A stretch of 64,000 bases of DNA from Oceanospirillaceae bacterium (GTDB lineage: Bacteria > Pseudomonadota > Gammaproteobacteria > Pseudomonadales > Oceanobacteraceae), in NCBI GenBank assembly GCA_002724925.1, contig PBQA01000005.1:1-64000 (forward strand). The letters are read 5' to 3'. The position numbers and the translations under genes are program-made. Of this stretch, positions 480 through 52,938 are shown in pieces (position 1 is the stretch's first letter; each line of letters starts with the position of its first letter). The notes under the pieces are model-generated. The model was not told the DNA's origin and did no database searches. It worked only from the letters and a program-made list of their open reading frames with translations.

Positions 480-2816
480 TTACCAAGCTTCTTTCGCCAA
501 GAGCTGCATGTTAAGCGAACCTGTTTTCAAACCTGCCCTGTTAAACCGGTAGCGCATATATGCAGAGATATCGTCCTCATGCGAGGAGACAATCAATTGG
601 CAATGTTTGAGTTCGCAACGGAGTAGATCTGTCAAGGAAGCAACGTTGATTTCATCCAGAGATTGCGACGGGTCATCGATCAATATGATAGGTACCTTAG
701 CATAGACCTTGTTCAGTGATAGAAAGAAGGCAAGGCTAAGGGCGGACACCTGACCAGAACTCATGGACATGACTGCGTCGTGTTCAGATTTCTCGGCAGT
801 CAGAAACCTCAACTGTGTGCCTTCTCGGCTCTCGATAAATAGGCCCAGACCGCGCTGGTAGTTTTGGATCAGTCGGCCACTGTATATATGGAATATGAGC
901 TCAATAGCCGAAATTGTCTGGTCGGCATACCTTTGCTCTGTCGCCTTCAGTGTGTCTCGGAGCTTTTTGATTTTACCTTGTGCTTTTTGGGCCGCTAAGG
1001 TTTCTTTTTCGATAAGTTTAAGATCGGAAATACAGGTTTGTAACCTAGCATTTTTAGCCTCGTTAGCTTTAATCGATATGTACTGTTCTTTACCCGTCAA
1101 GTCTTCTGCCGTGATTATGTAGAAGTCCTGTAGGTCTTTGAAGGCGCTGCTTGCTGTTTCTCTCCAGTCCTCCGGCAGCGCTACGGCATCGACTTCAATC
1201 TGTTTTTTATTCCTTAGAATCGCTTTTTTCAGCCTTTCAAGTCGCTCATTTACTACATCATCATTTTCCGTAAATGAGTCAGTAAATTGAATATTGTCGT
1301 TAATCAGCCTCTCCCTTAGCTGGGTTATTGCTGGTAGCCGATGTTTGATTTTGGTCAACGCAGCATGAAGATTTAGTTCAAATGTAGGCTCGATAACTCT
1401 CAATCTACCTTGGATATGGCTGTCGATGAGCTTCAGCTCAGCGTCCATAGAAGCGATAAGGTTAACTAACTCCTTACCGTCCTTGCTTAGTGATTCAGAG
1501 ATCTGCTTGGTTCTTGCTTCAATGGCATCCAACATTGATTTATGATCTTCCCAGTCCGTACCACAGAGAGGACACAACTGATCATCGGGGTAGGACTTCT
1601 TATGTTCATCAATCAGCTGCCTTTTCAGGCGTTCCAATTCAGCTATGATGTTCGCATTGGCGCTGTTTTTTTCGATTAGGCTGTTTCGGGATTCAATTTG
1701 TAACTCAAACCACTCAAGGCGCCCATCCGCCCAGCTTGGCAATGATTGGGCTTCTTCGACTTTGATTGTCCTAGCTCCGCGCTTGATGATGGCCGCAGAA
1801 CGCTCCAGTTCATTAACCCCCTTCTTGATTGCTTCAAGCCCGTCAAGCTTGTCCAGGTCTTTACCGAACTGAGATAAGCTCCTCAAAGATTCTTCGTTAC
1901 GTTCGATGTCGGCATCGACTCCCTCGTTATGAACTCTAGTTTTTATCGTGGCTTTGAGCGGTAGAAGGGCAATAATTTTGCGAATTGATTCCTGATAGGC
2001 AGCATGATCTTCCGCTGAGTACGTTGAGAATAGAACCTCCTTGTCCCATATTGGTTGGACATCAGCCGTTGAGATTTTTTTGTACTCAACGTTAATTGTC
2101 TCTGCCTGCAATGTGGTTTTTAAGCTGGCTATCTCATTTTCAAGTGATCGAGCTTTCTCCGTGCGTTCAGGATTGTTGATGAACCTTGTGAATTTATTGT
2201 TTATGGTGTTGCAGTTTTCAATCTCAACTTCAATATCGTTGATGTTAAAAAGGTTTCCTAGTTCATCCTTACGTTCATCTACCCGAGTGTGTAACAGTCG
2301 GTTTTGCCCTTGTTCCAGATAGTTAAGGAAGGAGAAATTTTCCCTGAAGTCTTTACCGAAAACTTCGTCAAGGAAGTTGTTGTCGCGCAGATTGATCTTT
2401 GTAAAGTCAGTTGATTCAAATTCCGGAAGCTCGTAAAGCTTAAAGTTTTCATACTTGTCTGCACGATTATTCGCTGGTTTTTGGAATATCTCAGCAGGGC
2501 AATGTCTTGCTAAAATAAGTTTACGTTCATCATTAATGAATTCAATTTTAATGCAGAGATCGTTCTCGCCGGACCGGTTGTTCCAGAAGAGATTGTCCGC
2601 GTAGTCCCTTTTGTTCTTGGTTAGTAAAGTAGAGAATAGGTTTTTTATTCGATTGATTTGGCCAGTGAGCAGTAGTTCAATGGCGTCGTATATACTGGTC
2701 TTACCATAACCGTTCGGACCGTCAAGAGTTAGCAAGGACGACTCGCCAAGATCCAAGTAGACATGCTTGAATGCTTTGAAACTAGAGACTTCAACCTTAG
2801 ATATTTTCCAATTCAT
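480..2816 (-). CDS. SMC/RecF-like ABC ATPase of a three-component defence cassette
   Basis: This is a 778-residue ATPase with split ABC halves. Walker A is GPNGYGKTS (residues 33-41). A long coiled-coil-like middle carries CPLC (C415/C418), the zinc-hook style motif of Rad50/RecF-like proteins. The signature SSGQ is at 686-689, Walker B with D-loop (ILIDDPSQSLDE) near 710-722, and the switch His at about 746. It is the last gene of a minus-strand operon. Its start overlaps the upstream gene by 20 bp, indicating coupled translation. The set of nuclease-like effector, small middle protein and ABC ATPase matches the architecture described as ABC three-component (ABC-3C) conflict systems. The expected role is nucleotide-dependent sensing of nucleic acid and control of the effector; this is inferred from context. 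A stand-alone RecF/SbcC-like repair ATPase is the alternative. Confidence 0.75.
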   Translation of the reverse strand: MNWKISKVEVSSFKAFKHVYLDLGESSLLTLDGPNGYGKTSIYDAIELLLTGQINRIKNLFSTLLTKNKRDYADNLFWNNRSGENDLCIKIEFINDERKLILARHCPAEIFQKPANNRADKYENFKLYELPEFESTDFTKINLRDNNFLDEVFGKDFRENFSFLNYLEQGQNRLLHTRVDERKDELGNLFNINDIEVEIENCNTINNKFTRFINNPERTEKARSLENEIASLKTTLQAETINVEYKKISTADVQPIWDKEVLFSTYSAEDHAAYQESIRKIIALLPLKATIKTRVHNEGVDADIERNEESLRSLSQFGKDLDKLDGLEAIKKGVNELERSAAIIKRGARTIKVEEAQSLPSWADGRLEWFELQIESRNSLIEKNSANANIIAELERLKRQLIDEHKKSYPDDQLCPLCGTDWEDHKSMLDAIEARTKQISESLSKDGKELVNLIASMDAELKLIDSHIQGRLRVIEPTFELNLHAALTKIKHRLPAITQLRERLINDNIQFTDSFTENDDVVNERLERLKKAILRNKKQIEVDAVALPEDWRETASSAFKDLQDFYIITAEDLTGKEQYISIKANEAKNARLQTCISDLKLIEKETLAAQKAQGKIKKLRDTLKATEQRYADQTISAIELIFHIYSGRLIQNYQRGLGLFIESREGTQLRFLTAEKSEHDAVMSMSSGQVSALSLAFFLSLNKVYAKVPIILIDDPSQSLDEINVASLTDLLRCELKHCQLIVSSHEDDISAYMRYRFNRAGLKTGSLNMQLLAKEAW

Positions 2817-3456
2817 TACTAATCATTTCCCTAATAATATCGTCGGTGTTTTTGTGTGTAACTCTCTGGATAGTCGAATACATTTCAGTCAGTCCAGCTT
2901 CTGCAACCACCTCAGCCGCTTGCAACCTCAAGGGTGTAAGGTTATCTTGATGACTAGGTAACTCTAAGAAAGGAAGTTTGATAAAGGTCTTTGCAGCGAA
3001 ACTGTATTGTGTGGGGGCAAGAGGATTCTCTTTGTAATTAAGAAATTTTTTCTTGTCAGAAATCACGGATTCCAGCTCGTCGTATGTGAAATCAGTTAGC
3101 GCACTTTCTTCCGCAGTACTGTAATAAAGTACATATTTTTTATAAAAGTGCGGGTCTTCTTCGATTGCGAATATCTCTTCTTCTTGTTCCTTGAATTCGG
3201 CCAGAACGTCAAGACGATGAATACAAATTAAATCGCAGTTTTTCTTGAAGCTTGGGTTTCTGAGAAACTCCTCAGGAGCAAGGTGATTGATTCGATTATT
3301 TAACTCGTCTGGGGCAATAAGTTCGTCTAAATTATGTACAACTGCGAACCTAATGGCAGATCCATACTCGCGAAAATAAAAGCTTGTGGTGTCCCGTTCA
3401 TGTTTGTTCACAAAGCCATGGGCACTAAGTGCTTCATCAATGAGTTTTTTAATCAT
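2797..3456 (-). CDS. Middle component of the ABC three-component cassette (hypothetical)
   Basis: This is a 219-residue soluble protein with no membrane segment, signal peptide or catalytic motif that I recognise. It is acidic and helix-rich. It overlaps the upstream effector gene by 8 bp and the downstream ATPase gene by 20 bp, so the three are certainly co-transcribed. Position and size fit the small 'middle component' that bridges effector and ABC ATPase in ABC-3C systems. That assignment rests on gene order rather than a motif. Homology to a named MC family should be tested with a profile search. Confidence 0.6.
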   Translation of the reverse strand: MIKKLIDEALSAHGFVNKHERDTTSFYFREYGSAIRFAVVHNLDELIAPDELNNRINHLAPEEFLRNPSFKKNCDLICIHRLDVLAEFKEQEEEIFAIEEDPHFYKKYVLYYSTAEESALTDFTYDELESVISDKKKFLNYKENPLAPTQYSFAAKTFIKLPFLELPSHQDNLTPLRLQAAEVVAEAGLTEMYSTIQRVTHKNTDDIIREMISNELENI

Positions 3457-4666
3457 TCAGTCGAGCCTCCGCGTCGTCTTTTGTCATTACGCTAATGCAT
3501 AGCGACCTAGTGATGTTACTTTCACGCTTCGCAGTGGCCTGCTTATCGTCAAAATCGTCTGAGTTTGTGAACTTTGAATTGAAGGAGAATGATTCTTTTG
3601 CTTTACTGGCGATTAGATGGTTGTACTCAAAAAGTAGTCTAAGCAGATCTCCGTTGTTTTTCATTTCATTGATCATGTCAGACTCACACTCCTCGCTTTC
3701 ATCCACATCAAGAGCGGTAGGTACGTAAAACCGATTTTCGCTGTCGAGATAATGAGGAAGGTCGTTGAAGATGGGCTCCACAGAAATGGCCTGAATAAGC
3801 TTAGAATATCGCCTTATGTCGTTCGTCTGAACGTCTTGAAAGCGCTCAGAAGGTTTCATCATCTGGCATAGAGTTTTTAATTCGTTGATATCGGTTATCC
3901 GAATGTGCTCACAGAGACGTTTGGCTCTCTCGTATGTTACGTCACTCATAGTTGGAAGAGCCTGATCCAACCTCTCCTCTAGATGAGCTTGGAGCCTTGC
4001 CTTTAGATTAACTGCATAGTAATCCCTATCCTGATAGGGGTTTTGGAGCAGTACTTCATCTAGGATATCTCTCGCGTTGATACGACCATCGTAAGCAGCT
4101 TTTTTTTCTGAAAAGCCGTCTACTTGATTTAGTTTGTGATTATCTATCGCCTTAGCACTTATTTTTTCTGAGAGTAAGCAATAGTTAAAATTTATGAGAT
4201 TATCACTGACCGTGACGGGCTGTTTCTCACATATTTTTTTTATTAGTGCTTTGGTTAGTCCTTCAATTTCACCCAGCCCACAATGAAAGCTGTCTCCGTA
4301 GGGGTAGAATTTCACGATTTCTCCGCTAGCGCCTTTGTGATCACTTGTGTTTTCTAGCGGGACAGATACGTGAAAGTAACGAGTGGTCCCTTCGATTTTG
4401 TCATGTTCAATTAAAGTGGACTGTTCCAAGGCCTTGGCATAGTTCTTTCGATATTTACCTACCTTAGCTTTGACTTGGTGCGCGGTGTGTAATTTTCCAT
4501 TTCTATAGATAGCGAAATCATCAGTACTGTCAAGCTGAAGATCAAAATCAAAGTCGCCATCGAGTATGAGCTTTAGGGAGTGGTAGAGTGCAACTTTCCC
4601 TTGATAAACAAAGCCGCTCCAGGAGGATATGGCGCTGGCCGGATACGTCTCTTCTTGTTGGCTCAT
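3449..4666 (-). CDS. Nuclease-like effector of an ABC three-component system
   Basis: This is a 405-residue protein. I start it at 4666 because AAGGAG lies 5 bases upstream; an in-frame codon at 4681 has no such site. The N-terminus (residues 13-66) reads SSWSGFVYQGK, then DDFAIYRNG and HQVKAK. This gives D50 and Q64-V-K66, in the D...QxK spacing of PD-(D/E)xK nucleases of the DUF4297/Cap4-like kind, which attack double-stranded DNA in several defence systems. The remaining roughly 300 residues are helical and unassigned; they probably form the C-terminal sensing domain. It is the first gene of the three-gene operon. The nuclease assignment rests on motifs and context, not on a database match. 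Confidence 0.6.
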   Translation of the reverse strand: MSQQEETYPASAISSWSGFVYQGKVALYHSLKLILDGDFDFDLQLDSTDDFAIYRNGKLHTAHQVKAKVGKYRKNYAKALEQSTLIEHDKIEGTTRYFHVSVPLENTSDHKGASGEIVKFYPYGDSFHCGLGEIEGLTKALIKKICEKQPVTVSDNLINFNYCLLSEKISAKAIDNHKLNQVDGFSEKKAAYDGRINARDILDEVLLQNPYQDRDYYAVNLKARLQAHLEERLDQALPTMSDVTYERAKRLCEHIRITDINELKTLCQMMKPSERFQDVQTNDIRRYSKLIQAISVEPIFNDLPHYLDSENRFYVPTALDVDESEECESDMINEMKNNGDLLRLLFEYNHLIASKAKESFSFNSKFTNSDDFDDKQATAKRESNITRSLCISVMTKDDAEARLND

Positions 4667-4857
4667 ATGAACTCCTTTCACTGGGATCTACATGATCATT
4701 CCTAATGACCGCTTTGGATCGCAAACGGAATTTGCACGACCATTGTATAACGCTGCGTTAAACTGAGTGAACTTGTGGATTGAAATTTCTATCGAAGTGA
4801 AAATAAAACCACTGTTCTAGTTTCGTCCAAACGTCTATTTATGTTTTTTTACCACTG

Positions 4858-42985: not shown

Positions 42986-43480
42986 CTACTTATCGTTCTT
43001 AAACCGCGCTTCTAAAGTACGAAGGAGCTCAAATGTCGAGATACACTGCACACCTAATGCATCGCAGATATTCGGTATCTTTACTTTCTTGGTATCTGCC
43101 GGTGCCTTTCTTGCCTCATGTGTCACTAAAACAGCTCCGGTTGATTTGGACTTGGCAATTAACCAAGGGTCAGCCCCTTCGAGAAAACCATCACGATTAC
43201 CAGGGTTATATTTCCCAGACATCACAAAGTTGACGACTTCATGATACTCCGCCTGAGTATCAAGATCGTTTGACTGAATGAAGTGATCCCGATGTGAGCG
43301 ACACCATTCCCTAAGTTTATCATTGCCTTTCTCAAGCTCTTTACCAACAAAGTCAATGCTGGCCACATTACCCAAGGCGAACTGATCAATGAGCCAATCC
43401 CAATACCCAGGGCAGAAGTCCATGCCATAATATTTGTTCTTTGCTTCGATATAAGTATTTGCATCCATTAAATACTTCAA
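42986..43480 (-). CDS. DUF4411 PIN-like domain protein, probable toxin
   Basis: 164 residues, with a TTG start overlapping the upstream stop codon (TTGA) and AAGGAG 8 bases before. It begins KYLMDANTYIEAK, where the Asp is the first acidic residue of a PIN nuclease site. Later acidic residues are in GADPWLIA and in ICDALG. The DUF4411/XRE-ImmA pair is a known toxin-antitoxin-type combination, often near restriction systems. It is expected to cut RNA. Confidence 0.8.
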   Translation of the reverse strand: MKYLMDANTYIEAKNKYYGMDFCPGYWDWLIDQFALGNVASIDFVGKELEKGNDKLREWCRSHRDHFIQSNDLDTQAEYHEVVNFVMSGKYNPGNRDGFLEGADPWLIAKSKSTGAVLVTHEARKAPADTKKVKIPNICDALGVQCISTFELLRTLEARFKNDK

Positions 43481-44616
43481 ACACCGATCTCCTTTGCAAA
43501 TTTCATAAGATTAGCTGGGCTCATTCCTAATAAATGCCCAGCCTCTCTAAGCATGATCTGACCATTTAACGCCTGAGAAGAAACAGCAAAACTGAAGCGA
43601 TCACTCAGCCAGGCTTTCTGATTCTTGTAATAGCCTCCACCGCCACCTTCGCGCTCGCGGTCTTCGTGTGCTTTTTTCTCTGCCGCAATGTATTTCAGGT
43701 AATCAGGTTTAGTAATAAACCCCAGCGTCATCGCTCGTCGCGCCAATGCCCAGGTGCTGACGTGAAAGTGGGCTTCGAGTGGCTTCAGGTTTTCTTGCCA
43801 GTATTCCACTTCCCGGTCCCAGATCTGCCTGAACTCTTCTTCGGGAACCAAAAATTCCGCTGCAACAGCGTTGCACAGTATTTCAATATGATTATGCGTA
43901 TTAGCGTCACCGTCAGACACCCCAGACTCACCAAGCCAAACATGGCAAAGTTCATGGATAAGAGTAAATAGTCGCGCTCCCGGAGCGTCGGCGTGGTTTA
44001 CAAAAATTAGCGGGGCAACTTTGTCGACCATCGCAAAGCCACGAAATTCTTCGACCTTAAAACGCCGATGATGACTACCAAGGTGTGGTAAGCGCATAAC
44101 CAGAACCCCCAGAGACTCAACCTGCTTCACCAAACCACGATAATATTCTTCCCAAGTGCCGCGCGTAGGGTGTGGAGGTAGGCGCATGGTCTGGCGCATG
44201 TCGGCAACAATAATATCGACGCTGTCGCTCCCCTTACAACGGCCAACGACCCGACACTCATTGCCACCGTTCTCAAACAGGTAATCCTTGTACCATTCCT
44301 GTCTTTCCTGCATTTGCTTCACTACGTCCAGGAGTTCAGCACTGGGGCGGCGTACTTCGCCGTTTTCGATGGTTCGTAGATCGGGAATTGGCAACGTTTC
44401 TTCAGGCGGCTGCCTGAGAAACAGGTATCCGAGCGGGACATAGGCTTTTTCGGCGTATTGGGTAGCCTGATGGAACGTCAGCGGACGAGAACCAGACTCC
44501 CATTCCTGCAGCCATTCGGGCGTTTTGCCCATCTTTCTCGCGAATTCAGGCACGGCGAAGCCCGCGCGTTCACGCGCCCAGCTAAGCATTTCGGGGTTAA
44601 TCATGGCCTGAGTCAT
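43477..44616 (-). CDS. XRE-family regulator with ImmA/IrrE metallopeptidase domain
   Basis: 379 residues from the ATG at 44616 (AGGAGG and 4 bases). Helix-turn-helix about residues 8-60 (SWARERAGFAVPEFARKMG, then TPEWLQEWESG). A peptidase domain from about 150 contains HELCHVWLG (HExxH) and a later acidic residue. In such operons the HTH half is the antitoxin or repressor and the HExxH half may be proteolytic. The last gene in the chain is the PIN gene, with a 4-bp overlap. Confidence 0.85.
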   Translation of the reverse strand: MTQAMINPEMLSWARERAGFAVPEFARKMGKTPEWLQEWESGSRPLTFHQATQYAEKAYVPLGYLFLRQPPEETLPIPDLRTIENGEVRRPSAELLDVVKQMQERQEWYKDYLFENGGNECRVVGRCKGSDSVDIIVADMRQTMRLPPHPTRGTWEEYYRGLVKQVESLGVLVMRLPHLGSHHRRFKVEEFRGFAMVDKVAPLIFVNHADAPGARLFTLIHELCHVWLGESGVSDGDANTHNHIEILCNAVAAEFLVPEEEFRQIWDREVEYWQENLKPLEAHFHVSTWALARRAMTLGFITKPDYLKYIAAEKKAHEDREREGGGGGYYKNQKAWLSDRFSFAVSSQALNGQIMLREAGHLLGMSPANLMKFAKEIGV

Positions 44617-44694
44617 ATGTCCTCCTGGATTGGTCAAATTATAAACTGACCTTGGGTTCCTTCCCAGTCTTGCAACACGCCAGTTAATCTAACA

Positions 44695-44727: not shown

Positions 44728-47700
44728 TCAGTCTTTACTAATACTCCCACCAACCCCTTTAAACTTCTCAACAAACGCAGCGATCTTCTGGAACACCGTC
44801 TGCTTCTTGGTGTGATACAGCGGGTTTAACGGGCTCATCTTAGGCAGAACAGAGTTGAGTTCTGTGCCCGCGTCGCTGGCGTACTCGCGTTTCAGCGAGC
44901 TGATGATGTAGCGGCGAGCCTCTTCGGCATTGAGGTTCTCGGTTTCAATCAGCTCCTCAGCTTCGCGCTGCTGTTCGGCTTGCGCAAAGGCAAAGAAGGT
45001 ATCGATGACGGTGGCCTTATCGCCGATCTCATCCAGATCTGTCTGGTTGATGAAATCGACCACCAGACTCTCTTTGGCGCGGTTGCCGAGGCTGCCTCGG
45101 ATCACTCGGCGAACTTCGTCCACGAGGTCAGACTTACTCTTGTTCTTCTTGTTGTGTTCGAAGATCAGCTCAAGAATGTAGTCGAGGTTGATCTCCTGCG
45201 ATTTAAGCAGGTCGACCTCAAATACTACATCATCCCAGTCGATGGTAGATTTCTCTTGTACTTCTGCCGATTTCTGGCGCCGCTGCCAGTCGCGGATATC
45301 GTTGTAACTTGAACGATAATCCTGAATTTTACGGTCCGCGGGCAGACGAATACTCTGCAGTTCGGCCAGCTTGTCATCATCGAGATAATGCTCGGCTTTA
45401 AAGGCTTCAACCGCTTCCGGGTCGCTCATATCGACATTCTGCAAGGCTTTCAGGCTGGCGAATTCATCGTAGTTCTGCAGGATATTTTCAACACGCAGAT
45501 ACTCACCAAAGAGCTTGGCAAAGGCTTTTTTATCAGACTCTTTTTCAATATTCGCAGGATCAGGGAAGCGTTGTTCCAGCTCACTGACCACCGTCATAAA
45601 GCCACGCTTCGCTTCACCAGTAATCACATCAGTGAAGCCTTCGAGGTATTCCTTATAGCTTTTCTCCAGAACCACATTTTTAGTGTTTTTATCACCAAAC
45701 AAGGTAATGGCATCGACGGTCGCCTGCTCTAAATCACGGAAGGTAACGATATTACCGAACGTCTTAGTAGCGTCATAAATGCGATTAGTACGCGAGTACG
45801 CCTGCATCAGGCCGTGATAACGCAAGTTTTTATCAACAAACAAGGTATTGAGGGACGGCGCATCAAAGCCGGTGAGAAACATCCCCACCACAATCAACAG
45901 GTCGACTTCTTTGCTTTTTACCCGCTTTGCCAGGTCACGGTAATAGTTCTGAAAGCCCTTGCTATCCACGCTGTAGTTCGAACTGAAGAAGGCGTTATAG
46001 TCCGCGATGGCCTTAGTCAAAAACTCTTTGGCACTGGAGTTCATTGCTGCCACATCAAAACTTTCATCCACAATATCGCCTATGGCGTCCTGCTCTTCGT
46101 TGGCGGCATACGAGAAAATAGTAGCGACTTTAAGCGGCTTATCTCTGTCTTTGTAAGAAGGCTCCTGCTGAAGCTGGTTGAGCGTCTCGTAATACAACTT
46201 GGCGGCATCTACACTACTCACCGCAAACATGGCGTTAAAGCCTGCTCCTCCGGCTTTCATGCGATGCGTCTTCTGGCGGAAGTTGTTGAGAATATACTGC
46301 GAAATTTCACGAGTACGTTCCGGGTGCAGTAACGCCTGCTTGTTCTCTAACGCACTCAGCTTCTTCTCGTCCTGCTCGGTTTCTGCCTGTCTAAACTGCG
46401 GGCGTACGTCGTTGTAGTCCACCTTGAACTTGAGCACTTTTTCATCGCGGATCGCATCTGTGATTACATACGAATGCAGTTCTCGCCCAAATACGCTGGC
46501 GGTGGTTTCTGCACCCAAGGCGTTTTGCGGGAAGATAGGCGTGCCGGTAAAGCCAAACTGATAGAAACGTTTGAACTTCTTCTTCAGGTTCTTCTGGGCT
46601 TCGCCAAATTGGCTGCGATGGCATTCGTCAAAGATAAACACCACCTGCTGGTTGTACACCGGCAGGTCACCTTCGCTTTTCATCAGGTTGTTGAGTTTCT
46701 GAATGGTGGTGACGATGATCTTATTGTCGTCTTTACTCAGGTTCTGTTTCAAGCCCGCCGTGCTGTCAGAGCCGTTCACACTGTCTGGCGAAAAGCGCTG
46801 GTACTCCTTCATGGTCTGGTAATCCAGATCTTTCCGGTCAACAACGAAGAATACCTTATCAATAAACTCTAACTCCGTAGCCAGCCGTGCTGCTTTAAAG
46901 CTGGTCAGGGTTTTACCCGACCCTGTTGTGTGCCAGATATAGCCGCAATTCTCTGGCATCATGCCTTCTTTAGGGCCGGTCCAGGCTTTAGATTCGTACG
47001 CACACTTGATCTTCCACAGAATGCGCTCGGTCGCAGCAATCTGGTATGGGCGCATCACTAACAAGGTATCGCTGACATCAAACACCGAATAATGCAGCAA
47101 TACATTGACAAGGGTGTGCTTCTGCAGGAAGGTCGCGGTGAAGTCCTTCAGATCTTTTATCAGAGTGTTATCGGCTTTCGCCCAGTTCATGGTGAAGTCG
47201 AAGCTGTTTTTGTTGCGCTTAGTGGTGTTGGCAAAATACCGCGTATCAGTACCGTTAGAGATAACGAATAATTGCAGGTATTTGTACAACGAATGCTCGC
47301 TGTTAAAGCTCTCTTTACTGTATCGGTGAACCTGATTAAACGCCTCACGAATGGCAACGCCACGCTTTTTCAGCTCGATCTGCACCAGCGGTAAACCATT
47401 CACCAGAATAGTGACATCATAGCGGTTGGCATGGCTGCCGGTTTGTTCGAACTGCTTAATCACCTGAACTTTGTTACGGGCAATCTGTTTTTTGTCGACG
47501 AGGTAGATGTTCTTGATACGCCCATCATCAAAGACAAAATCGTGAATATAGTCATCGTGAATCTTGCGGGTCTTATCAACGACATTGTCACTGGGTTTAT
47601 CGAGATAGGTCTCAACAAAGCGCTGCCACTCGCCTTCCTGAAACTCAACTTTATTCAAGCGCTGCAACTGCTCGCGCACATTCGCCAGCATGGCAGTCGG

Positions 47701-47868
47701 GTTGTTCAAACCGGGCAGATACTCATAGCCCTGATTCACCAGATCCTGAATCAGCTCACGTTCCAGATCGCCTTCGCTCTGATAGCTTTCGGCGACCTGC
47801 CAGTCTTTGTTGTATTTATCCAGAACGATAAAGTTATTGGATTCGGCGATGGTTTTGTATTCGGTCAT
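44728..47868 (-). CDS. hsdR: Type I restriction enzyme, R subunit (HsdR)
   Basis: 1046 residues. The N-terminal nuclease region includes QIELKKRG (PD-(D/E)xK, ELK). The SF2 motor has TTGSGKT (Walker A) and [10 protein letters not shown] (DEAH-like box), followed by GFTGTPIF and [12 protein letters not shown]. It is the motor-nuclease that translocates and cuts DNA when HsdM/HsdS finds an unmodified site. It is last in hsdM-hsdS-prrC-hsdR and overlaps prrC by 4 bp. Confidence 0.95.
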
Positions 47869-49235
47869 TTCGCTTCCTGCTTCTTGAAGCCATAAGTATC
47901 AGTCAAATAGTCTACTAGCTCACCCAGCATCTCTTTGTCTCTATCTTCGACATCTGATGCCTCCTCACCAGCATGAGCAGAATGGCTGGAGAGATTCAGA
48001 ATCCTGTTAGCAAATGGATCAGGCTTATCTCCAGTCGTCTTCGGCAAAAGAGCTGGCCAGTAGTTATAGCCTAAGAAAGTTGCCATCTTCTCTAGAAGGT
48101 TCCTGACAAAACTGAAATGATACTTTCTGATCTTTCCGTCTTTTATAGCACGCCGAACCTCGGACAAAAGAAAGAGATGGTAGGAGAATGGGGAATCGGT
48201 CGGCTGATTCAAAAGCTCGAAGCCTCCATCCCCCTGTTTTTCAAGACGGTACTTTTTGAATTCTTTATTCGGGTTATATGAAAGTACATCAGATCCATCT
48301 AGCGCTTTCTCATAGGCTTTATTGCTTAACTCATTACAAAGCACGTTATAAAAAAGCGGGCTATGCGTAGTAACAACAAACTTAAGGCTTGACTTACTAC
48401 CTTTGATCAGCCCTGCCAGATCAACTGCCAATTCAATTAGGTGACTATCATCCAATGAGCTTACAGGGTCATCAATGAACACGTAATCCAGCCCATCAAA
48501 TTTATTCGTTATCCTATTCGATTTATCAGACTCATTCAGCGTAGATACTACCTGCTCCAAGAGGGTATATAAAACACTCCAAACAAAGTTACTCTCTTCG
48601 CCTTTGGATATCTTTATTCTCTCATAACGCCCTTGAACAACCGGATTGGTATCGTTTGAGTTTTGACCAAGATTATTGACAGCAGGAGACTGATCAGCCG
48701 CTACGAGAAAGATGACCTCAGAAAAAGCAGGAACGGTGACCTCAATCTCTTTCTTATTATGATCTTGGGTCTTAACTTTATACTCTTCATTAAAGGTAGG
48801 CGTAGCCTTGCTACCGGTATACCGCTGAAAATTTGTTACGATATTGCCGTCCTCCCCCAACTCCTTAAGAAGATCAATCAGCCAGTCCGTGAATGTATTT
48901 GGCTGTATCTTTAACCTAGGCTCCGTATCCTCTTCTAAATCGTTATCCCAATAGAATAAATCTTCGGTAAACGCATTGTAATAGAGAATCTTATCACGAG
49001 CTGAAGCGCTATCATCCTCCTTCTCGGTTTTCGGAGCTATCAGTTCCTTAAACTCTCGCGACAAACGAGTTTTCCCCGATCCGTTAAACGCATAAATCAG
49101 CTGAGCCTTTGGAACAGGCTTTTCATCCCTCACCTGGACTTTACCTGACCGCTTATTACCTTTTGCTTTCACTTGCCTAGTACTGACAGCAGGGACAGAT
49201 AACTTTTCTGCTATATCCTTTAGCGTCTGACTCAT
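47865..49235 (-). CDS. prrC: PrrC-type anticodon nuclease associated with the type I system
   Basis: 456 residues from the ATG at 49235, one base after the hsdS stop. It matches PrrC of E. coli throughout. The N-domain opens with [11 protein letters not shown]. The ATPase has [11 protein letters not shown] (50-60), [26 protein letters not shown] and [12 protein letters not shown]. The nuclease half keeps R378, E382 (FVRNLLEKM) and H418 (NLSSHSAH), equal to the R320/E324/H356 site recalled for E. coli PrrC. When HsdR is inhibited by a phage (Stp in T4), PrrC is released to cut tRNA-Lys. A loop of about 40 residues at about 180-225 is not in the E. coli protein. Confidence 0.92.
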
Positions 49236-49236
49236 A

Positions 49237-50382
49237 TCAAGCAATCTCCTCAGCAACAGAATTTCGGAAGCTCAGCAACAAATCGCGGTAATATTCGTAT
49301 TGTTTTTGGCGCAGCTCGATTTCGCGGGGTAGGCCTTCGGTGATGGAGTTGGTCAAGGCGTCGAATTTATCGAGGATATTTGCAATACGCTTTTGTTCAG
49401 CCAATGAAGGCACGGGAATTGTTAGCCCTTGAAGTTTGCCTACAGCAAGACCGGGTTGAGCTGACTGCGAGGCATATTGGTTGAGATTCATAACAGTTAA
49501 CATATGAAACGCCCAATCAATATCTATTTCACCACTGCTCGTTACCACAACTGCATGTTCAGTCGCATAGAACTGACCCTTCATTCTCTGCACATTTCCG
49601 CATAGTGCGCCCTGCCTACCAATAAGCAAGTGATCGCCATCATGACTTTTGCTTTCAACAAAACCTCGAATTCCATTGCCGCCGAAACATGGATAAGAAT
49701 GTTCATCACTAGCATTCGACATTATTTTACTTGCTGAGATATGCTGCCCAGCACGCATATGGAGCACATCCCCCAACGTCTTCCACTCTACTTCCCCCTC
49801 TTCAAAACTCAACAACTGATCGCGATAGTAGTTGTATTGTTGCTTGCGCAGGTTAAGCTCGGCGGTCAGCTCGGCGGTCATGGCGGTAAATGCGTCCAGA
49901 ATGCGGACGATTTCGGCCTGGATTTCCAGTGATTTTTGGGGATTGTTTGGACAGGGGATGGGGATTTCCAAACTCTGGATTATTCCAACAGCCAATCCCG
50001 GTTGAGCAGATTTTGAGGCATACTGATTAAGGTTCATTAGTGTTAGCAAATGAAATGCCCAATCAACGTTTATGCCATCACTTGGCGTTACAACGACAGC
50101 ATGCTCTGTTGCGTAAAACTTTCCCTGTGTTCGCTGTACATTTCCGCATAAAGCACCTTGCCGACCGATGAGCAAATGTTTTCCATCGTGGCTATTTTTC
50201 GCAACAAAGCCACGAATCCCATTTCCACCAAAACAAGGATATGGATGTTCTTTGCTAGCTTCATCCATGATGTTGCTTGCCGAAATATGCTGACCAGCTC
50301 GCATATTTACAACATCTCCTAGTGGCCTCCACTCCACCTCAACGCCATCCAGCAGCCGCTCTATAAAGCTTACATCACTCAT
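49237..50382 (-). CDS. hsdS: Type I restriction enzyme, specificity subunit (HsdS) with two near-identical TRDs
   Basis: 381 residues. TRD1 (about 15-140) and TRD2 (about 200-325) are roughly three-quarters identical by eye: both have [23 protein letters not shown] and [16 protein letters not shown]. Conserved helical spacers follow each ([18 protein letters not shown] and [18 protein letters not shown]). Each TRD reads one half of the bipartite target. With two near-equal domains facing each other, the target should be palindromic or nearly so. The DNA repeats about 550 bp apart could recombine. Confidence 0.93.
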
Positions 50383-51950
50383 GCGTCCTGCTCCTCGCCT
50401 TCAATCTCCGCCACAATCGCATCAATCTCTGTGCGCAGTTCGCTGATTCTGGCGACGGTGGTTTTCAGTTCGGCGTTCAGTTGTGTGATGTCCACCACTT
50501 CGCGGGTGTCTTCGGCTTCGACATAGGAGCTGACGGACAGGTTGTAGTCGTTATCGGCCACTTCCTCCACAGGCACGGAGCGGGCAAAGTGGTCGATATT
50601 CTCTTTGCTGTCGAACACTGCCATGATTTTCTGGATATGCTCGTCGGTAAGGATGTTGTTGTTGGTTTCTTTTTTGAACAGGTTACTGGCGTCAATAAAC
50701 TGGGTATCGGTATTGGGTTTGTTTTTTGCCAGCACCAGAATATTCACCGCAATGGTGGTACCGTAGAACAGGTTGGGCGCCAGTGATATCACCGTCTCGA
50801 CGTTATTGTTATCGACCAGATATTTTCTGATTTTCTGCTCGGCACCGCCACGGTAGAAAATACCAGGGAAGCAGACAATCGCCGCCCTGCCCTTGCCCGA
50901 CAGATAACTGAGAGCATGCAGCACAAAGGCAAAGTCGGCTTTGGATTTGGGCGCGAGCACACCGGCGGGGGCAAAGCGGTCGTCATTGATCAGCGTTGGG
51001 TCGTCGCTGCCTATCCATTTTACCGAATACGGCGGGTTGGAGACGATGGCGTCGAAGGGTTTGTCGTCGCCGAAGTGGGGGTCGGTCAGGGTGTTGCCCA
51101 GCTGGATATTGAACTTGTCGTAGTTGATGTTGTGCAGAAACATATTCATACGAGCCAGGTTGTAGGTGGTGTGGTTCAGCTCCTGGCCGAAGTAACCCTC
51201 TTCAATCTTATGCACGTCGATGTGTTTTCTGGCTTGCATGAGCAATGAGCCTGACCCACAGGCCGGGTCGAATATTTTATTTATGCTGCTCTGGCCGTGA
51301 ACCGCGAGCATGGCGATGAGCTTGGACACATGCTGCGGAGTAAAGAACTCGCCGCCGGATTTACCGGCGTTGGCAGCGTAATTAGAGATCAGGAACTCGT
51401 AAGCGTCACCGAACAGATCAATGTGGTTGTCTTCGAATTTACCGCCCGATTCACCATGAAAGTTCAGCCCGGCAACGCCCTTGAGTACGGCGGCCAGGCG
51501 CAGGTTTTTGTCTTTGACGGTATTACCGAGGCGGTTACTGGTGGTATCGAAGTCGGCGAACAGGCCTTTGATGTCCTGCTCAGACGGGTAGCCAAAAGCT
51601 GAGGCTTCGATAGCACTGAAGATGGCCGCTAAATCGGTGTTCAGGCTTTCATTGCTGTTGGCATTTTTCGCTACGTTATCGAACAACTGGCTGGGGTAAA
51701 TGAAATAACCCTTGGTTTTGATGGCGTCTTCTTTGATCTCTGGGGTGATGACGCTGTCGGGCAGTTTGGCGTAGTGGATACTTTCGTCACCGGCCTCAAT
51801 GTAGGCAGCAAAGTTTTCACTGATAAAGCGATAAAACAGAGTGCCCAGTACGTATTGCTTGAAGTCCCAACCATCCACAGAGCCTCGTACATCATTGGCA
51901 ATCGCCCAGATCTGGCGTTGCAGGGCGGCGCGTTGTTGTGAACTTGTCAT
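50379..51950 (-). CDS. hsdM: Type I restriction enzyme, M subunit (HsdM)
   Basis: 523 residues. SAM-binding motif I is [11 protein letters not shown] and the catalytic motif IV is SNPPYSVKW, so it is an N6-adenine methyltransferase. [13 protein letters not shown] is the usual family block. First gene of the RM operon. It overlaps hsdS by 4 bp. SD is weak; the start has an N-terminal [19 protein letters not shown]. Confidence 0.95.
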
Positions 51951-52020: not shown

Positions 52021-52938
52021 TCAGCCTTCGGCAAAGTAATCGGTGTCGAGCGATTTTACCTGATAGGTATCTTTGACGGTAACGCCAAGGTCGTAGCGGA
52101 TCATCAGCTCGGCCAGTTGCATGCCGTCGATCAGCACCACCCGCTTTTCAATCATATTCACATAGTCGATAGCATCACGGCTGAAGCGGCTTGTGGTGAT
52201 GAATACGCCCTTTCTGGCACGCTTCATTTCTAAAGCTCCGACAAAGGCCTGTACGTCCGGGCGACCAACAGAGTTGCCGGTGTAGCGTTTGGCTTGCAGG
52301 TAGATGGTGTCGAGGCCCAGAGGGTCTTCGTTGATGATGCCGTCGACACCACCATCATTGGTGTATTGGGTCGCCTGCCCTGCCTTCTCACTCCAGCCGC
52401 CATAGCCCATGGCGAGCATAAGTTCGACGACGAGCTTTTCGAAGAACTCGGGTGTCTGGCGTTTTACTTGTGCGAGTAGATCATCGGCCAGGCTGGCCTG
52501 CAGTTCCTGATGGGCCTGTTCGAGGCGTTCTGTGGGGTCGAGGGCTTCTGATACTTCTATGGTTTGAGTTTCGGCTGCCTCTGTTGAGCGGTTATCAATG
52601 GCTCTGAATTCTTCGAAGGCTTCGAACTGTTTGAGATAACTGGCATCGATTTTTTCTGGGTTCTCTGCCAGTACTTGCCTGCCGATGGCCGTAAGGTGGC
52701 TGATTCCGCGTTGCGGGCTTTCAATGAGTCCGGCTTTGCGCAAATAAGTCGTCGCCCAGGCAACCCGGTTGTACATCAACGGGCTGCGCTTACTGGGCGT
52801 CATACGGCGACGCTCTTCGTCGGTGAGCTGGTATTGATCGCTGAGCAGGTCGACCAGATTACGCAGCGACATATCACCTTGGGTATCGAGAGTGACCAGC
52901 ACCGGGCGCATCAGGGTTTGATAATCAGGTATTGGCAT
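52021..52938 (-). CDS. mrr: Mrr-type restriction endonuclease
   Basis: 305 residues. The N-terminal winged helix (PSKRSPLMYNRVAWATTYLRKAGLIES) is followed by the Mrr_cat domain: GGVDGIINEDPLGLDTIYLQAKRY (D, then QAK in the PD-(D/E)xK form). Mrr cuts DNA carrying foreign methylation. It lies 70 bp upstream of hsdM on the same strand, so it probably belongs to the same defence island and possibly the same transcript. Confidence 0.92.
   Translation of the reverse strand: MPIPDYQTLMRPVLVTLDTQGDMSLRNLVDLLSDQYQLTDEERRRMTPSKRSPLMYNRVAWATTYLRKAGLIESPQRGISHLTAIGRQVLAENPEKIDASYLKQFEAFEEFRAIDNRSTEAAETQTIEVSEALDPTERLEQAHQELQASLADDLLAQVKRQTPEFFEKLVVELMLAMGYGGWSEKAGQATQYTNDGGVDGIINEDPLGLDTIYLQAKRYTGNSVGRPDVQAFVGALEMKRARKGVFITTSRFSRDAIDYVNMIEKRVVLIDGMQLAELMIRYDLGVTVKDTYQVKSLDTDYFAEG

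Follow-up and report, generated by a model that had tools for sequence, protein, structure and literature searches.

The locus described here raises the question of whether a gene found inside a type I restriction-modification operon encodes an anticodon nuclease of the PrrC kind and, if it does, how closely such a nuclease is tied to the operon that carries it. The window, as the whole stretch of DNA analysed is called below, comprises 64,000 nucleotides (positions 1 to 64,000 of contig PBQA01000005.1, from an Oceanospirillaceae bacterium), and the operon in question lies on its reverse strand. The four genes are as follows; loci other than the window are designated by L numbers.

50379-51950, minus strand: hsdM, N6-adenine methyltransferase subunit, 523 aa (TIGR00497 hsdM, E 5.3e-196)
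49237-50382, minus strand: hsdS, specificity subunit, 381 aa (Methylase_S in two stretches)
47865-49235, minus strand: prrC, 456 aa, predicted ABC-type ATPase at the N-terminus and HEPN-type anticodon nuclease at the C-terminus (AAA_13, 3e-12; PADLOC PrrC, 6.7e-129)
44728-47868, minus strand: hsdR, restriction and translocase subunit, 1046 aa (TIGR00348, E 1.9e-203; EcoR124_C domain, 1.2e-68)

hsdM overlaps hsdS by 4 bases, as prrC does hsdR, and the gap between hsdS and prrC is a single base. The prrC frame (47865-49235, minus strand) runs from an ATG to a stop codon and gives 456 aa; a longer alternative begins with a TTG at 49256, and the ATG was preferred because it aligns with the start of E. 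coli PrrC. The promoter scan (8, against 10.2 in shuffles) and the terminator scan (12, against 10.6) gave no signal above shuffles. The preliminary description had recognised a PrrC in a complete type I locus, and both the PADLOC match (E=6.7e-129, covering residues 32-455) and the complete hsdM-hsdS-prrC-hsdR operon bear this out. Pfam returned the general AAA_13 match alone, the NCBIfam search of the protein gave no match, and a search of solved structures by sequence found no PrrC-like chain (best E 0.15). The hsdM, hsdS and hsdR genes are of the EcoR124/EcoprrI kind and HsdR carries an EcoR124_C domain, which points to membership of type IC.

The gene order had been likened to that of the classic prr locus, and the likeness holds for the window operon and for most of its relatives. 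Among 80 genome loci examined, retained from 454 encoding a relative, 68 have exactly hsdM-hsdS-prrC-hsdR among their recognised genes, an order that does not mean strict adjacency, as prrC and hsdR are more than 250 bases apart in 13 of the 80. The remaining 12 comprise four with the same order and one further recognised gene, and eight that lack one or more of the recognised genes, mostly at contig ends. In several of the 13 gapped loci an open frame occupies the space between prrC and hsdR, for example a Fic protein in L036; the other frames in these gaps we take, judging by eye, to be RhuM, BRO-N or DUF1016 proteins. RhuM- and Fic-like genes beside PrrC or RloC have already been remarked upon by the authors who treated the HEPN proteins (PMC3710099).

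The two halves of the window HsdS (49237-50382) are unusually alike, at 67% over 180 aa and, at the DNA level, 73% over 356 bases; among the HsdS proteins compared, only that of L025 comes near (60%). By analogy with BstXI, for which a palindromic split recognition site is described (PMC3874165), a specificity subunit with two like halves may read such a site. An Mrr-type (type IV) restriction gene lies directly upstream of hsdM (52021-52938), so that the region forms a small defence island. Just downstream of hsdR, at 42986-44637, are a DUF4411 gene and an IrrE-peptidase/HTH gene with a 4-base overlap, presumably an arrangement like that of a toxin-antitoxin pair. Further away, at 480-4681, the window holds a three-gene ABC-three-component (ABC-3C) system, consisting of an SMC-like ATPase, MComp1 and CTD1.

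The residues on which the assignment of the protein depends are listed below; the coordinates of Walker A were obtained by arithmetic from the ATG at 49235, and those of the loop likewise by arithmetic. The reference numbering is that of L104, a 396-aa PrrC from the E. coli plasmid NZ_CP116245, in which D287, R320, E324 and H356 fall at the published E. coli numbers (PMC2610378, PMC3014915). Conservation was judged in a set of 105 PrrCs (the window, 100 loci and L104-L107), which were picked by likeness to the window protein or by hand and include near-duplicates such as L007/L008 and L014/L015.

49068-49091, minus strand: Walker A, AFNGSGKT, residues 49-56 (N51, G54, K55 and T56 invariant in 95/95)
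48624-48785, minus strand: loop region, about residues 151-204, the site of 37 residues beyond E. coli PrrC
48195-48197, minus strand: codon of D347, equivalent to E. coli D287 (Asp in 103/105)
48102-48104, minus strand: codon of R378, equivalent to E. coli R320 (kept in 105/105)
48090-48092, minus strand: codon of E382, equivalent to E. coli E324 (kept in 105/105)
47982-47984, minus strand: codon of H418, equivalent to E. coli H356 (kept in 105/105; with R411 it forms the HEPN Rx6H)

The R378/E382/H418 triad, already named in the preliminary description, is exact in its positions and aligns with R320/E324/H356; the alignment with E. coli PrrC which had been suggested there was carried out, and matches D347 to D287 in addition. 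The motif R411-x6-H418, both residues of which are invariant in 95 of 95 PrrCs, agrees with the Rx4-6H motif of the HEPN RNase superfamily (PMC3710099). In the ATPase part the Walker A motif, the SKGEE signature, the DDPVSSLDD motif and the switch His are present, and S210, E213, D255, D256, P257, S260, L261, D262 and H291 are likewise invariant in 95/95.

An RloC-type, DNA-damage-responsive anticodon nuclease would share the domain order seen here, an ATPase followed by an R-x3-E...H nuclease (PMC2610378). However, the window protein has 456 aa with no long coiled-coil insert, its single cysteine, C300, leaves no CXXC zinc hook, the gene is embedded in a type I operon, and the PrrC model matches over residues 32-455; an RloC assignment is thus extremely improbable. 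The gene very probably encodes a PrrC-type anticodon nuclease, which would give its type IC restriction-modification system a second line of defence.

In the EcoprrI system, PrrC is silenced by the linked Hsd complex and released by the anti-restriction peptide Stp (PMC3014915). From E. coli PrrC and from PrrC170 of Klebsiella we infer how the window PrrC would be silenced, triggered and set to cleave. The HsdM2S complex would methylate the host DNA and, together with HsdR, cut unmodified phage DNA, while PrrC, produced from the same operon, would be kept inactive by the Hsd complex. A phage product that blocks the restriction enzyme would bring about a change of state in the N-terminal ATPase of PrrC; this switch would free the C-terminal HEPN nuclease, host tRNA-Lys(UUU) would be cut beside the wobble base, and translation would halt, with phage growth aborted.

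A substrate of the expected kind is encoded in the same genome, where ARAGORN finds two tandem tRNA-Lys(UUU) genes on contig 27, the matched stretch having the loop CTTTTAA. A pattern scan for tRNA-Lys gave 10 places at no more than two mismatches and, because the reversed control gave as many, proves nothing by itself; the two genes are those which ARAGORN confirmed. Asp287 of E. coli PrrC, the counterpart of D347, is described as contacting the wobble base of tRNA-Lys (PMC3014915). The nuclease could nevertheless have the PrrC fold and act on another tRNA or a broader set of RNAs, its C-terminal third having been re-targeted. This third is the less conserved part of the protein, with a mean pairwise identity of 0.53 compared with 0.64 for the rest (74 sets), dropping to 0.42-0.47 between PrrCs that have been exchanged between loci (L096/L028 and L107/L028; see below), so that a shifted target is possible even with the Asp kept. 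On the other hand, the triad and the Asp287 equivalent are both retained, the tRNA-Lys(UUU) loop is present in the genome, and PrrC170 of Klebsiella quasipneumoniae, which stopped phages T1 and T7, is reported to deplete tRNA-Lys although it is only 35% identical to E. coli PrrC (PMC11555353). Retention of function across such a distance makes it plausible that the window protein has kept it too; re-targeting appears quite unlikely, and the target of the window PrrC is likely to be tRNA-Lys, as for PrrC170.

The preliminary description had also drawn attention to an extra loop of about 40 residues in the ATPase half, absent from E. coli PrrC. The loop is real, but it is not peculiar to this protein. 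It lies after Walker A and before the ABC signature (SKGEES, from residue 210), and the span from NAFTEDLF to SKGEES measures 123 residues in the window and 86 in L104, a difference of 37. Spans of at least 105 residues occur in 25 of the 105 PrrCs and spans of 86 or fewer in 20, the commonest value being 98 (42/105); the set having been selected for likeness to the window protein, such proportions should not be read as frequencies in the population. Loop length varies stepwise across the PrrC family. Across 20 long-loop PrrCs, identity to the window averages 0.65 along the full protein; it drops to 0.26 in the tip of the loop (179-186) and is 0.50 towards the loop's C-terminal end (195-204, the VQGxYE side). 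Read most simply, the long loop would be an extension of the ATPase lobe that is specific to a lineage, its ends conserved and its tip variable. The coiled coil of RloC likewise interrupts the ATPase domain (PMC2610378), at a position that would correspond to that of the window loop. A zinc hook within the loop was ruled out, as the protein has one Cys only.

Whether PrrC follows its Hsd partners can be judged from the 74 loci with complete neighbours (31 of the 105 were left out, a neighbouring gene being cut or missing). Mean pairwise identity among them is 0.81 for HsdM, 0.80 for HsdR, 0.61 for PrrC and 0.39 for HsdS; the identities of HsdM and HsdR correlate at 0.82, and those of PrrC with either of the two at 0.48 and 0.45. 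In 23 pairs both HsdM and HsdR are at least 93% identical, and the PrrCs of these pairs fall into two classes, with identities of 0.82-0.98 in 14 pairs and 0.56-0.59 in nine. All nine discordant pairs belong to a single HsdM/HsdR group, made up of seven loci (L096, L101, L107, L028, L029, L030 and L033), and they represent at least two exchanges, not nine. Loop lengths differ within the discordant pairs, which shows that the Hsd partner does not set the loop.

These pairs bear on the proposal that the long loop is co-adapted with the HsdR and HsdM of this locus as a docking piece, or else that it senses a local phage inhibitor. Conserved ends with a variable tip are in keeping with such a role; variability at the tip would fit with a partner exposed to diversifying pressure. 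However, near-identical HsdM/HsdR sets carry loops of 86 (L096), 98 (L107) and 118 (L028-L030), and L096 differs from L028-L030 at only one uniform HsdM position and 11 HsdR positions. As short, middle and long loops thus occur on near-identical HsdM and HsdR, docking of the loop on the Hsd partner looks unlikely from these comparisons. A sensor role is conceivable, but the reading as a whole is improbable. The simplest account of the lineage-specific extension is that the long loop travelled along when prrC genes moved between loci.

The boundaries of one exchanged segment can be seen by comparing L096 (Marinomonas fungiae) with L028 (Ningiella ruwaisensis). A 6.4-kb stretch reaching to mid-hsdS is 93% identical in DNA. 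Through the remainder of hsdS and through prrC the identity is 67-77%, in short pieces, and 21 bases into hsdR it climbs back to 95%; gene by gene, the identities are 96.8% (hsdM), 80.7% (hsdS), 65.5% (prrC) and 95.0% (hsdR). Six of the 11 HsdR differences between L096 and the uniform residues of L028-L030 lie within the first 14 residues, and L096 and L101 agree at five of these six positions. Since the crossover is just inside hsdR, the first HsdR residues go with the PrrC type. A different combination is found in L036 and L107, where fic and hsdR are common to both loci (84% over 4.3 kb) and prrC is not.

The trees point in the same direction. Of 34 strong splits in the HsdR tree, PrrC contradicts 22 and HsdM 11; of 20 in the HsdM tree, PrrC contradicts 10 and HsdR four. 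The HsdM and HsdR trees, too, are partly in conflict with each other. Forcing the PrrC tree on HsdM or HsdR costs 2019 or 3526 log units, compared with 435 or 845 for the other Hsd tree, and forcing the Hsd trees on PrrC costs 5959 and 5378; the accompanying AU test was run with 1000 replicates, a number too small to make its values firm. Within the HsdR tree, the window clusters with L025, L032, L085 and L095 (0.97), loci with loop spans of 123 (L025, the long class), 97 (L032) and E. coli length (L085 and L095). Taken together, these sequence comparisons suggest that prrC has been exchanged between type IC systems. No description of such exchange was found in the literature by title or abstract, where subscription journals and bioRxiv are thinly covered.

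The distribution of the gene is that of a part which can be absent. Type IC systems without PrrC are known, such as EcoR124I (PMC3014915). PrrC is rare in the order of the window genome, occurring in three of 144 genomes at E<=1e-60, and the genus is accordingly uninformative on its role. A search of GenBank phage records for PrrC gave no match at 1e-5, and relatives are encoded on 20 IMG/VR contigs. In IMG/VR there are 53 close HsdR loci with sufficient sequence upstream of hsdR; prrC precedes hsdR in 16 of them, and in the other 37, many of which look redundant, hsdS takes that place. From the identities, the trees and these hsdR neighbours, PrrC appears as an accessory of a conserved type IC machinery, one that can be absent or exchanged.

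The same genome contains a second complete locus, L107, on contig 32, with the order integrase, hsdM, hsdS, prrC2, fic, hsdR; among the 144 genomes of the order it is the only one with two PrrCs (E<=1e-60).

L107 8095-9693: prrC2, PrrC2 of 532 aa, residues 135-526 of which match PrrC at 9.2e-143

In this locus, as in L036, a Fic-domain protein is encoded between prrC and hsdR (L107 9971-10948, L036 8414-9415), and the PrrCs of the two differ. The first approximately 135 residues of PrrC2 match no Pfam (none better than E 0.16), NCBIfam or PADLOC model, and among the 105 PrrCs this module is found in PrrC2 only. It recurs at the N-terminus of other proteins in 104 plasmid records. Those examined carry TIR_2 (L195), a CAP12-type TIR (L196) or TIR/SEFIR (L197), with a weak nucleoside-deoxyribosyltransferase match, below cut-off, in L198, and several of the genes are annotated as FRG-domain among the 60 of the 104 records listed. 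BLAST of the module against eight such proteins gave 52.8-85.1 bits, the best of 50 shuffles reaching 29.3. In the class, six of 274 genomes contain the module, including this one; the other five frames, of 285-451 aa, are in no case PrrC-like and in our own reading bear FRG-like and other labels. No paper describing the module was found by title or abstract, again with thin coverage of subscription journals and bioRxiv. The second locus suggests that anticodon nucleases can acquire sensor modules from other abortive-infection proteins.

As a PrrC, the window protein is expected: its kinship with a known enzyme is real but unremarkable, and the exchange of prrC and the module-bearing PrrC2 are the parts that call for specialist follow-up. 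A tentative reading of both, which we rate a little short of even, is that the space between hsdS and hsdR is a swappable effector slot, in which prrC, often taking along the initial residues of hsdR and, from hsdS, the second recognition half, recombines among otherwise conserved HsdM/HsdR systems. One chassis could then arm many PrrCs, with a short or a long loop, with Fic beside them or with a fused sensor-like module; the window PrrC would be one such cassette and the second locus another, whose fused TIR/FRG-type N-terminal module would provide an anticodon nuclease with two distinct triggers. The natural pairs, in which HsdM/HsdR sets 95-99% identical hold PrrCs 56-59% identical, offer a direct test of PrrC silencing, as the feature by which PrrC is held must either be common to all these PrrCs or lie in the first HsdR residues that travel with them.

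Comparison with known systems places the window PrrC as follows. RloC resembles it in combining an ABC ATPase with an R-x3-E...H anticodon nuclease, but has a coiled-coil/zinc-hook insert and is described as seldom linked to type I loci (PMC2610378). PrrC170 is like it in standing alongside a type I system, and has itself been shown to be antiphage and specific for tRNA-Lys (PMC11555353); L106, whose PrrC is 30.6% identical to that of the window, is assumed to resemble PrrC170 from its species and gene set only. Among the long-loop relatives, L025 and L024 (Neptunomonas/Neptuniibacter) have PrrCs 76-77% identical to the window protein in the same operon, and the PrrC of L105 (Klebsiella plasmid NZ_MT570100) is approximately 62% identical over its full length, again in the long-loop class and the same operon. 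The loop spans 123-124 residues in the window, L105 and L025, and also 123 in L024, and the HsdS of all three relatives differs from that of the window; a functional test of these three PrrCs was not found in the literature covered. The EcoprrI type IC locus of E. coli, represented by L104, agrees with the window in gene order, and its PrrC agrees in the triad, in Asp287 and in the ATPase motifs. Identity to the window is 80.6% for the HsdM of L104 and 80.8% for its HsdR, while for its PrrC it is just 47.8%; in the window PrrC the loop is longer by 37 residues, the part before the FSYH motif by 18 (54 compared with 36) and the N-terminus by nine (45 compared with 36).
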